This document shows positions 3,015-5,545 of a DNA stretch of 5,545 bases, piece by piece (the first letter of the stretch is position 1; each line of letters opens with the position of its first letter). The translations under genes and the position numbers were made by a program. Origin of the DNA: a bacterium. Its GTDB lineage: Bacteria > DYJV01 > JALVYZ01. The stretch spans positions 1-5,545 of the forward strand of contig JALVYZ010000488.1 of assembly GCA_027037705.1 (NCBI GenBank), written 5' to 3'. The notes under the pieces were generated by a model. It was given only the letters and a program-made list of their open reading frames with translations, made no database searches and was not told the origin of the DNA.

Positions 3015-3045
3015 AGCACCTGAGATACTCAGGTGCTTTTTTTTT
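3015..3045 (+). terminator. Intrinsic terminator after flgE
   Basis: The perfect 10-bp inverted repeat AGCACCTGAG (3015-3024) / CTCAGGTGCT (3028-3037) has an ATA loop and runs straight into nine T residues (3037-3045). It ends the fliK-flgE operon 26 nt after the flgE stop and separates it from csp. Confidence 0.93.
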
Positions 3046-3063: not shown

Positions 3064-3092
3064 TTGACTTTAAAATTTTTTAATGATAAATT
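3064..3092 (+). promoter_or_regulatory. Probable sigma-70 type promoter of csp
   Basis: A -35 element TTGACT (3064-3069, 5 of 6 to consensus) is followed by a 17-nt spacer and TAAATT (3087-3092, 4 of 6). A TG at 3084-3085, correctly placed for an extended -10, compensates for the weak -10 box. Transcription would start near 3099, giving a leader of about 72 nt whose first element is the hairpin at 3102. The region is very AT-rich, so chance matches are possible, but the position between a terminator and a structured leader fits. Confidence 0.6.
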
Positions 3093-3101
3093 GAATTTTA
3101 A

Positions 3102-3142
3102 GCAGTCGTTCTAAGTAGTATTATCTATTTGGAACGCTCTGC
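3102..3142 (+). promoter_or_regulatory. Structured 5' leader hairpin of csp, possible RNA switch
   Basis: The leader folds into a long stem. A lower part GCAG (3102-3105) pairs with CTGC (3139-3142). After a small internal loop (T3106 opposite C3137-T3138), a 12-bp upper stem pairs 3107-3118 with 3125-3136, using two G-U type pairs, around a TATTAT loop. No T-tract follows, so it is not a terminator. The 3' arm ACGCTCTGC (3134-3142) is also perfectly complementary to GCAGAGCGT (3175-3183), codons 2-4 of csp, which would give a competing helix with the ribosome binding site and ATG in its loop. Structured leaders that change with temperature are known for cspA mRNAs in E. coli; switching here is my inference. 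Confidence 0.6.
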
Positions 3143-3155
3143 AAAAGAAATTTTT

Positions 3156-3161
3156 AGGAGG
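3156..3161 (+). promoter_or_regulatory. Ribosome binding site of csp
   Basis: AGGAGG lies 10 nt before the ATG at 3172, a slightly long but workable spacing. It sits in the single-stranded interval after the leader hairpin, in the loop of the alternative helix between 3134-3142 and 3175-3183. Confidence 0.8.
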
Positions 3162-3171
3162 TTTAAGTAAC

Positions 3172-3384
3172 ATGGCAGAGCGTGAAACGGGAAAAGTAAA
3201 ATGGTTCAATGCTAAGAAAGGGTATGGCTTCATCGTAAGGGATTCTGGTGGAGACATTTTCGTGCATTATACCGCTATTCAAGGGAACGGTTTTAAAACA
3301 CTTGAAGAAGGACAAACAGTGGAATTTTCAGTAACTGAGGGTCAAAAAGGGCCGCAAGCTCAAGATGTTTCAGTTGTGAAATGA
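3172..3384 (+). CDS. csp: Cold-shock domain protein (CspA family)
   Basis: This is a small single-domain OB-fold protein that binds single-stranded RNA and DNA in the cytoplasm, acting as an RNA chaperone or transcription antiterminator. The 70 residues are the usual Csp length. Both nucleic-acid binding motifs are present: RNP1 as KGYGFI at 16-21 (after KWFNAK at 10-15) and RNP2 as DIFVHY at 28-33. The C-terminal [10 protein letters not shown] strand is at 60-69. The start is set by AGGAGG and by the family N-terminus (GKVKWFN). It is a single-gene unit with its own promoter, structured leader and terminator. The coding region is about 42% G+C (89 of 213 bases by my count), clearly above the neighbouring genes. 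This fits either strong codon selection in a highly expressed gene or acquisition. Family assignment is certain; whether it is cold-induced or constitutive cannot be told from the protein. Confidence 0.97.
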
Positions 3385-3387
3385 TAT

Positions 3388-3412
3388 CAGGCGGGATTCC
3401 CCGCCTGTTTTT
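3388..3412 (+). terminator. Intrinsic terminator after csp
   Basis: CAGGCGGG (3388-3395) and CCCGCCTG (3400-3407) form a GC-rich 8-bp stem with an ATTC loop, followed by TTTTT (3408-3412), three bases after the csp stop. The same palindrome is read by the converging minus-strand operon. On that strand it is followed by a mixed sequence without a T-run, so it would be weak there, although I see no better terminator for that operon in the 40-nt gap between the stop codons. Confidence 0.92.
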
Positions 3413-3424
3413 ATAAACTTTCAA

Positions 3425-3841
3425 TTAATCCATTAAAAACATTTCTAAAGCATTATAAGGACAAACTTTTACACACCATCCACAAGCACTACATTTAGAA
3501 AAATCAAATTTTATTTCTTTGGTGTTTTTATCAATTGTTATTGATTTTGTTGGACAAACTGCTGTACATGCACCACAATGAACACATTTTTCAATATTTC
3601 TTACAACTGATTGTTCAATTGAGGAAACTCTTACACCAACTTTTTCTAAATATTTTAACCCAGCGTTATAGTTTTCTTCTTCTCCAGTGACTTCTGTGAC
3701 AAGATAGCTTTCATGACGAGGTAAAATATTTGCAATTAAAATGTTTAAAATTAAATCATAATCTTTGATTAATTTATAAACTATTGGTTTATCCCATATT
3801 TGTTTTGAAAATCTTAATACTAATCTTTTTTTTATTTCCAT
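3425..3841 (-). CDS. NIL-domain 2x[4Fe-4S] ferredoxin-like protein, probable homocysteine synthesis factor
   Basis: This 138-residue cytoplasmic protein has an N-terminal NIL domain (about 1-77; the small fold also found at the C-terminus of MetN methionine transporters) fused to a bacterial-type ferredoxin domain (about 80-135). Two complete CxxCxxCxxxCP motifs are visible, at Cys86/89/92/96 and Cys117/120/123/127, enough for two [4Fe-4S] clusters. In Methanosarcina and Desulfovibrio, proteins of this architecture are needed with a DUF39 protein to form homocysteine from aspartate semialdehyde and sulfide, presumably supplying electrons. The start at 3841 has AAAGGTG 6 nt upstream, overlapping the stop of the UPF0280 gene (gap 11 nt), so it is the last gene of the operon. 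The UPF0280 and cysE neighbours support the sulfur amino acid role. An alternative is an unrelated ferredoxin carrying a NIL regulatory domain. Confidence 0.85.
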   Translation of the reverse strand: MEIKKRLVLRFSKQIWDKPIVYKLIKDYDLILNILIANILPRHESYLVTEVTGEEENYNAGLKYLEKVGVRVSSIEQSVVRNIEKCVHCGACTAVCPTKSITIDKNTKEIKFDFSKCSACGWCVKVCPYNALEMFLMD

Positions 3842-3847
3842 TTTTTA

Positions 3848-3854
3848 CACCTTT
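3848..3854 (-). promoter_or_regulatory. Ribosome binding site of the NIL/ferredoxin gene
   Basis: On the minus strand AAAGGTG lies 6 nt before the ATG at 3841 and begins inside the TAA stop of the UPF0280 gene (3855-3853). It supports the chosen start and suggests coupled translation of the two genes. Confidence 0.65.
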
Positions 3855-4566
3855 AATTTTTTATTTTTACAAATTCAATTTTCCCCTTTATTGCAATTTT
3901 GTTATTTGAAATTGCAATTATTCCATAAATAGATTTTTCTTTTACATTATTTAGAACATTTTGTAAATTATTTTCATTTCTTATTTTATTACAAATAGAT
4001 GTTGCAAATGCATCACAAATAGGTGCATTTTTTCCTATTACGACTACTAAGTCAGCTTTCCCAAAACTTAATGAATGTCCTATTTTTGCTGAGGAAGAAC
4101 AAATAGCTATAGGTTGCAGCTCTTTTTTAATTTTTATTCCTATGTTATCAAAGCCATTTGAATAAATCTGCACTAATCTTTCATTATGAGTATCAATATA
4201 GATATCACCACCATTTTCAATTATAACTTCATTACAGAATTTTTTTAAGTCTTTACAAACAAATTGGGATATTGCTCCTGCAACTGATGCAAAAGGTCCT
4301 ACATTTGCCTTTTTTGCAGCAATAAGCATTTCATTAATTATTTCTGGTTTATTATTTTTAAATTTAATAGGAGTTAATGATTTTAAAAATTCTGGACAAG
4401 TTTTTATAAAATTTTCAATTTGAATTCTATACTTAAGTAAAATAGAATATGCTTCTTTTTTTAAGTATTTGTCGCTTATTATAAATAAATCTGATTCTTT
4501 AATAGTGACATTGTATTTGTATTCTTTTCTGGAATTATAATTTCTATAAATTCTTGCATATTGCAT
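3853..4566 (-). CDS. UPF0280 (COG2122) ApbE-like family protein
   Basis: This 237-residue protein belongs to UPF0280/COG2122, distantly related in fold to the FAD:protein FMN transferase ApbE. Signature blocks are NVGPFASVAGAISQ at 88-101, IIENGGDIYI at 115-124 (the N-GGD element shared with ApbE), SSSAKIGHSLSFGKADLVVV at 157-176 and CDAFATSICNKI at 184-195. No signal peptide or membrane segment is evident, so it is probably cytoplasmic. Genetic screens in Desulfovibrio linked COG2122 proteins, with DUF39 and NIL/ferredoxin partners, to homocysteine formation; its biochemical reaction is not established. Its ATG at 4566 directly follows the cysE TAG stop (sequence TAGATG). The bases before it are almost all A and T with no Shine-Dalgarno sequence, so initiation probably depends on ribosomes finishing cysE. 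The NIL/ferredoxin gene follows after 11 nt. Family assignment is firm; the role is inferred from context. Confidence 0.88.
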   Translation of the reverse strand: MQYARIYRNYNSRKEYKYNVTIKESDLFIISDKYLKKEAYSILLKYRIQIENFIKTCPEFLKSLTPIKFKNNKPEIINEMLIAAKKANVGPFASVAGAISQFVCKDLKKFCNEVIIENGGDIYIDTHNERLVQIYSNGFDNIGIKIKKELQPIAICSSSAKIGHSLSFGKADLVVVIGKNAPICDAFATSICNKIRNENNLQNVLNNVKEKSIYGIIAISNNKIAIKGKIEFVKIKN

Positions 4567-5295
4567 CTATTTTAATGTTTTTTTTAATTCTTCCAAGTCT
4601 TTAATATCTTTAATATTTAAATTTTTTAAAATTTCTTCTTTTGCATCCTCATGAAGTTCATTAAGCGATTTTAATTCTTCTTCAATTTTAATAAGCTTTT
4701 CAATCAATACAGTTAATGCTTTAGCTTCAGGATCAGGTAAAAGATGGTGGTCAAGTGGAGCTTCCTTTAGTTTCTTTCTTACAGTTTTTCCGGGAACACC
4801 TACAACAGTTGAATTTGGAGGAACATCCTTTACAACAACAGAATTAGAGCCAATTCTTACATTCTCGCCTATTACGATATTTCCAAGAATCTTAGCCCCT
4901 GAACCTATAACAACATTATTCTTAATGGTTGGATGTCTTTTCCCTTTTCTCCATGTTGTTCCTCCTAATGTAACACCATGGTAAATTGTAACATCATCTC
5001 CTATTTCAGTTGTTTCTCCAATAACAACACCCATTCCATGGTCAATTACAAATCTTCTACCAATTTTTGCACCTGGATGTATTTCAATACCTGTTAAAAA
5101 TCGTGAAAAATGTGATATTAATCTTGCAAGTAAAAAGAATTTTTTTCTCCAGAAAAAATGGGCAATTCTATGTAATATTGTAGCGTGAAATCCTGGATAG
5201 CATAATATAATTTCTAAAACACTTCTTGCAGCAGGATCTCTCTCAAAATAGCAATTTATATCTTCTTTAATTTTTGAAAAAAAATTTTTCAGCAT
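4567..5295 (-). CDS. cysE: Serine O-acetyltransferase CysE
   Basis: CysE transfers acetyl from acetyl-CoA to L-serine, giving O-acetylserine, the acceptor that O-acetylserine sulfhydrylase combines with sulfide to make cysteine. The N-terminal helical part has FERDPAARS at 17-25 and [17 protein letters not shown] at 33-49. The left-handed beta-helix of hexapeptide repeats runs from about 72 to 170. His86 in IDHGMG and His121 in KRHPTI are 35 residues apart, the same spacing as His158 and His193 of the E. coli enzyme. Glu71 occupies the position of its Asp143. Further family blocks are [10 protein letters not shown] (93-102), GVTLGGT (107-113) and [10 protein letters not shown] (131-140). The 242-residue protein is a short-form enzyme with an unusual charged, Lys/Glu-rich helical tail (about 190-242) ending in Lys rather than the C-terminal Ile that docks into CysK in E. 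coli. The ATG at 5295 lies inside the end of the upstream PHP gene, with only a weak GAGA element 9 nt before it. Confidence 0.95.
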
Positions 5296-5545
5296 TATTT
5301 ATCATCTCTTTAAAATCTTCAATTTTTCCACCAGCACCGATTATTATTTTTTCAGCAAGTTCTTTTTTTACAAAATCATTAGGAGCATGAGCATCATTAT
5401 TTAATAGAAGTTTAGCTCCGTATTTTTTACTTAATTTTAATACATGACCATTTGTTAATGAATGACCTTTCCTTGTTGTTAGTTCAAGAAATTTATTTCT
5501 TTTTACTGCAAGTTTTACATCTTCTTCTGAAATTAATCCTGGATG
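5267..5545 (-). CDS. PHP-domain phosphoesterase, C-terminal fragment (5' end outside window)
   Basis: Reading the minus strand from the right edge gives 92 open codons and a TAA at 5269-5267. The fragment begins [10 protein letters not shown], contains [11 protein letters not shown] at 25-35 and the metal-binding DAH in [12 protein letters not shown] at 46-57, and ends in an amphipathic helix. These blocks fit the C-terminal third of a PHP (polymerase and histidinol phosphatase) TIM-barrel metallo-phosphoesterase, histidinol-phosphatase-like in type. Its substrate cannot be told. The gene overlaps cysE by 29 nt in a different frame. The overlap includes an A5T8CA5 homopolymer stretch, so the last nine residues (AEKFFFKN and the residue before them) depend on that run being correct. 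No promoter is visible; the operon starts outside the window. Confidence 0.8.

Follow-up and report, generated by a model that had tools for sequence, protein, structure and literature searches.

Thermoswitches of cold-shock protein (csp) genes have been characterised in a few members of the Proteobacteria and Firmicutes. Temperature-sensing csp leaders are known from E. coli, Listeria and S. aureus (review PMC8155936). In the E. coli cspA thermosensor (RF01766), the leader is predicted to refold with temperature and the cold fold is the one expected to be translated. Listeria monocytogenes cspA and S. aureus cspB and cspC have, according to the review, thermoswitches in which leader structures that are opened in the cold control translation (PMC8155936). 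In S. aureus cspA, whose mRNA carries a 5′-terminal hairpin, RNase III cuts a long hairpin and a short hairpin stabilises the mRNA; the accessible text of that report describes no mimic of the start region (PMC3386247).

Here we describe a csp leader in a window of 5,545 bases, one complete contig (G000:C488) from an AT-rich draft genome. This leader probably acts as an RNA switch that adjusts how much cold-shock protein is made, and its design recurs in several little-studied phyla. It shares the 5′-terminal hairpin with S. aureus cspA and, with the E. coli thermosensor, the predicted refolding with temperature and a cold fold expected to be translated. Whereas the RF01766 model covers the whole csp gene, the window's leader is ~72 nt long and would work by a simple strand exchange against codons 2–4. 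The window scored 35.6 bits with RF01766, against a gathering score of 78, and scores stayed below threshold in all loci tested, relatives included; since the model spans the entire csp gene, the window's match is largely coding. Csp thermoswitches are already known, but no other Rfam family covers this leader and its structural class is missing from Rfam. A literature search for csp leaders in Bipolaricaulota or Chloroflexi, with most subscription journals beyond its reach, found no paper.

The csp gene (3172–3384, plus strand) encodes a 70-aa cold-shock protein and is the sole csp detected in its genome. The preceding flagellar hook gene, flgE, ends in a terminator at 3015–3037 and an intrinsic terminator of csp is predicted at 3388–3414 (plus strand); csp is therefore a single-gene unit. 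A candidate sigma-70-like promoter at 3064–3092 (plus strand), a consensus match of TTGACT, 17 nt and TAAATT with a TG before the −10, would put the mRNA start at ~3099–3101, at the foot of the leader hairpin. The Shine–Dalgarno (SD) sequence AGGAGG, read from the sequence, lies at 3156–3161 on the plus strand. G+C content is 40.5% in the csp unit (3100–3415) and 28.8% across the window, and csp uses the codons CGT, TTC and ATC, which are not preferred by the neighbouring genes or by the EF-G and EF-Tu genes of the genome. Going by this composition, the unit may have been acquired together with its leader. The protein tree, built on 70 aa, was unresolved and showed neither co-inheritance nor transfer of gene and leader, and a 16S search of the draft genome found none. 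The EF-Tu gene of the same genome (L323, G000:C366) has a G+C content of 42.5%, next to an EF-G gene at ~33%, and its codons (GAG, GCG and AGG, with ATT or ATC nearly absent) are unlike those of that EF-G. The minus strand of 3425–5545 appears by eye to encode a ferredoxin-domain protein, a UPF0280/ApbE-like protein, a CysE serine acetyltransferase and a PHP-type protein.

A preliminary description of this DNA had proposed two mutually exclusive RNA folds around the csp start, and both of the pairings it gave proved exact in coordinates and sequence. Fold 1 is the 5′-terminal hairpin at 3102–3142 (plus strand), with the pairing GCAG-U-CGUUCUAAGUAG / CUAUUUGGAACG-CU-CUGC. Its 5′ strand is GCAG-T-CGTTC (3102–3111, plus strand), and the hairpin is the minimum-energy fold of 3095–3150 at every temperature tried (−21.1 kcal/mol at 37°C). 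A covariance model (R1), derived from 20 Bipolaricaulota csp leaders with the window left out, has its best match in the window at 3101–3143 (24.3 bits, E 8e-5). The switching strand ACGCTCTGC (3134–3142, plus strand) can take either 3102–3110 as its partner (fold 1) or 3175–3183 (fold 2). The latter segment is codons 2–4 of csp on the same strand, GCAGAGCGT (Ala-Glu-Arg); written as GCAGAGCGU, it is the perfect 9-nt reverse complement of 3134–3142, ACGCUCUGC, with 9/9 pairs. The lower 3′ strand is common to both helices and the hairpin keeps its upper 9 bp in either fold (55°C structure), so the exchange is limited to the lower stem.

The complementarity exceeds what shuffled leaders provide. 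When the best contiguous helix between the leader (−95 to −26) and the start region (−22 to +15) was compared with that of dinucleotide-shuffled leaders, the window reached z −4.6 (p 0.002). Of the 48 synonymous ways to encode Ala-Glu-Arg, only 2 allow 9/9 pairing, or 0.27% when weighted by the codon usage of the neighbouring genes. RNAduplex scoring of leader against start region (window z −1.1) was too permissive, and the contiguous-helix test was used instead. Among the many features scanned for the preliminary description, a match as strong as the one that 0.2% of shuffles attain might have arisen as a functionless coincidence. We regard this as very unlikely: the same helix recurs at the same position in another phylum, and an independent covariance model finds the hairpin.

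Constrained folding put the energy of fold 1 minus fold 2 at −2.9, −1.5 and −0.4 kcal/mol at 10, 25 and 37°C, and at +1.0 and +2.1 kcal/mol at 50 and 65°C, the differences at mid temperatures being no larger than the energy model's own error. For an mRNA starting at 3099, the predicted occupancies of fold 1 and fold 2 are 0.99 and 0.00 at 25°C, 0.92 and 0.07 at 37°C, and 0.27 and 0.72 at 55°C, and in the full mRNA they cross at 45–55°C whichever 5′ end is chosen. The temperature-dependent balance suggested earlier agrees with these predictions, in which two exclusive folds of similar energy give way to one another between cold (hairpin >90% at ≤37°C) and warmth (start pairing 72% at 55°C), with differences that stay near model error. 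The predicted shift has the direction that one would expect of a cold-shock gene.

The predicted accessibility of the ribosome site differs from the earlier picture. Fold 1 had been said to leave that site free, but in the full mRNA at ≤25°C the SD is predicted to be 77–82% paired within a weak local hairpin. In fold 2, at 55°C, the SD and ATG are predicted to be ~0.8 unpaired, in an open loop, and only codons 2–4 are closed. The sign of control is therefore inferred, and repression by fold 2 would depend on a stable helix spanning +4 to +12, with support by analogy from the Anaerolineae leaders described below (class II). The footprint of an initiating ribosome takes in +4 to +12, where the fold-2 helix lies.

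We favour the reading, with a probability of roughly 0.55, that the csp leader is a bistable translational switch in which cold favours the hairpin and fold 2 lowers Csp synthesis. Behind it stand the sequences themselves, the pair of predicted folds, their predicted shift with temperature and the presence of the leader in other phyla. Strand 3134–3142 would act as an anti-start sequence, held in place by a 5′ segment that mimics the start of the gene (GCAG-T-CGTT). Transcription would yield the mimic hairpin first, and cold would favour it in the window and several relatives, or would slow its replacement in class II. When it is warmer, the freed strand would pair with codons 2–4, and a 9-bp helix within the footprint of the initiating ribosome would result in less Csp being made. 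The trigger for the exchange might be temperature, the RNA-chaperone activity of Csp itself, or both.

By identity, the csp genes most similar to that of the window come from Bipolaricaulota (77% for G596) and carry the same leader, here called class I (for example L332, GCAGTCGTTCTAA..TTTAGAACGTTCTGCC). Of the 46 Bipolaricaulota csp genes examined, which are those nearest to the window's csp and not a random sample, 35 have the hairpin of this leader. Model R1 also matches leaders from Handelsmanbacteria. The hairpin motif GCAG-Y-CGTT ... AACG-NY-CTG[CT] upstream of csp is present in the window. A DNA pattern for the hairpin gave mostly chance matches in 386 genomes. One order-mate genome of the window was compared and has a different csp leader. 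In one Anaerolineae family (L233–L242) we found a class I variant with 8/9 pairs, or 9/9 including a G-U in L242. The divergent members L159, L174, L399 and L276 keep much of the hairpin and have no complement. In four class I leaders (L391, L339, L396 and L348) we noted by eye UGUUGG upstream and CCAGCA or CCAACA immediately before the SD, which would add an outer helix closing the hairpin.

Fold 1 is 95.8% paired in class I (27 sequences), a level reached in 3 of 500 shuffles. The fold-2 helix is paired in 83.9% of cells (40 sequences), and pairing is nearly the same (82.9%) when the starts are dealt among the leaders. Covariation of the leader with codons 2–4 was not above chance in these 40 sequences (82/500 shuffles), single compensatory instances in L338, L339 and L340 included. 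An uncompensated mismatch is frequent at one position, the third base of codon 3 (16 of 40 relatives), which comes near to the uncompensated loss of complementarity that the preliminary description took as refuting the switch. Given the lack of covariation above shuffles and this frequent mismatch, conservation of the second helix in class I is suggestive, not proven. The window-type helix, ACG[CUA]UCUG[CU]C x GGCAGA[GAU]CGU, is, whole or as its GGCAGA core, the best leader-start helix at the window's position in 26 of 30 non-redundant Bipolaricaulota class I leaders. In its 10-bp versions (L332, L336, L338, L339 and L340), codon 3 is GAG, GAA or GAU, and the matching leader base is C/U, U or A. 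Codon 2 is GCA at 26 of 31 Ala in class I genes versus 16 of 93 elsewhere (p 3e-11), and codon 4 is CGT in 21 of 35 versus 18 of 105 (p 4e-6); in both cases the preferred synonym is the one able to pair with the leader. The bias can also stem from shared descent and a general start-region bias. The 11 Bipolaricaulota csp genes that lack this leader, a small number, show no preference for the pairing forms at codons 2 and 4. Heating is predicted to shift fold 1 to fold 2 in several relatives; many Bipolaricaulota members are predicted to be in fold 2 at every temperature, and acting as a thermodynamic thermometer is therefore no general feature of these leaders.

Class II comprises csp leaders in two Anaerolineae families (CAGAAGTTCTAA..GATTTGGAAC..AAAGGAGTTCCAAATC-ATG), where the SD-ATG spacer is complementary to the 3′ strand of the hairpin and similar to its 5′ strand. 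Members were chosen by fold-1 elements, apart from eight leaders added by hand (L165, L255 and L257 inside the counted set, the other five outside). Fold 2 pairs in 92.4% of cells (45 sequences) and the competing hairpin in 91.1%. Double changes were found at four pairs, in 9 cells versus 2.2 in shuffles (1/500 shuffles), the rows being related sequences and the shuffles taking no account of kinship; examples are GATTTAGAAC/GTTCTAAATC (L217), GGAACTCCT/AGGAGTTCC (L219) and CTGGAACCTCT/GGAGGTTCCGG (L155). The compensatory changes looked for in related csp leaders are seen in these analogous Anaerolineae leaders, and do not rise above shuffles in class I fold 2. Leader-start helices at p<0.01 occur in 32% and 23% of csp leaders of the Anaerolineae families, against 2–4% in broad comparison sets. 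When we tested in a generic way whether the anti-start strand has a contiguous 5′ partner, the result was only weakly positive (mean z −0.86 versus −0.21 in weak cases).

Class II also bears on a rival explanation, in which only the 5′-terminal hairpin is conserved, for protection from decay or for RNase III processing, and the match to codons 2–4 is a by-product of the conserved strand and an Ala-Glu-Arg start. Such an explanation accords with the better conservation of fold 1 than of fold 2 and with the lack of fold-2 covariation in class I, and a short 5′ hairpin does stabilise the processed S. aureus cspA mRNA (PMC3386247). It accounts neither for the window's perfect match, nor for the use of pairing-compatible synonyms at codons 2 and 4, nor for the separate Anaerolineae class, where the SD-ATG pairing is non-coding and shows compensatory change. 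We consider it unlikely.

In class II, the pairing of fold 2 falls directly on the ribosome site, and fold 2 is predicted to be favoured by ~4.5 kcal/mol at all temperatures, so a switch there would need kinetics or a chaperone. This predicted preference fits a variant of the bistable leader that differs in its trigger, namely kinetic autoregulation: fold 1 would arise as a co-transcriptional trap in which translation is possible, fold 2 would be the ground state, and Csp would speed the passage between them and so shut off its own synthesis, while cold would slow it. Only kinetics could switch the many Bipolaricaulota leaders predicted to be in fold 2 throughout, and in E. coli, Csps have been proposed to remodel csp leaders as a form of autoregulation (review PMC8155936). 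In the window, however, the folds are nearly isoenergetic and a thermodynamic switch suffices; we judge the kinetic variant somewhat unlikely. The bistable switch with its trigger left as temperature and/or Csp is the reading we retain.

More tentatively, and at rather less than even odds, an anti-start strand with two partners, a 5′ mimic of the start and the start itself, may be a broadly distributed and undescribed csp-switch design in Bipolaricaulota, Anaerolineae, Handelsmanbacteria and the window's lineage, with differing targets (codons 2–4 or the SD-ATG spacer) and Csp perhaps catalysing the exchange as autoregulation. A short leader with one strand exchange, and with natural variants in both its partner and its predicted balance, is a compact test system; it would allow testing of how bacteria tune Csp levels and of whether the mRNA of an RNA chaperone is itself a target of that chaperone.

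Further leaders have complements near the start. Five from Bipolaricaulota (L355, L357, L358, L359 and L360) have complements of 9–16 bp that span the SD and start, for example CACGGGUUAUUCCCUU x GGGGGAAUGACCCGUG in L359. Their sequences differ between members in a coordinated way, and the group is a possible third leader class. An unrelated csp (L132, genome G019) has a 16-bp leader complement over the SD spacer and ATG.
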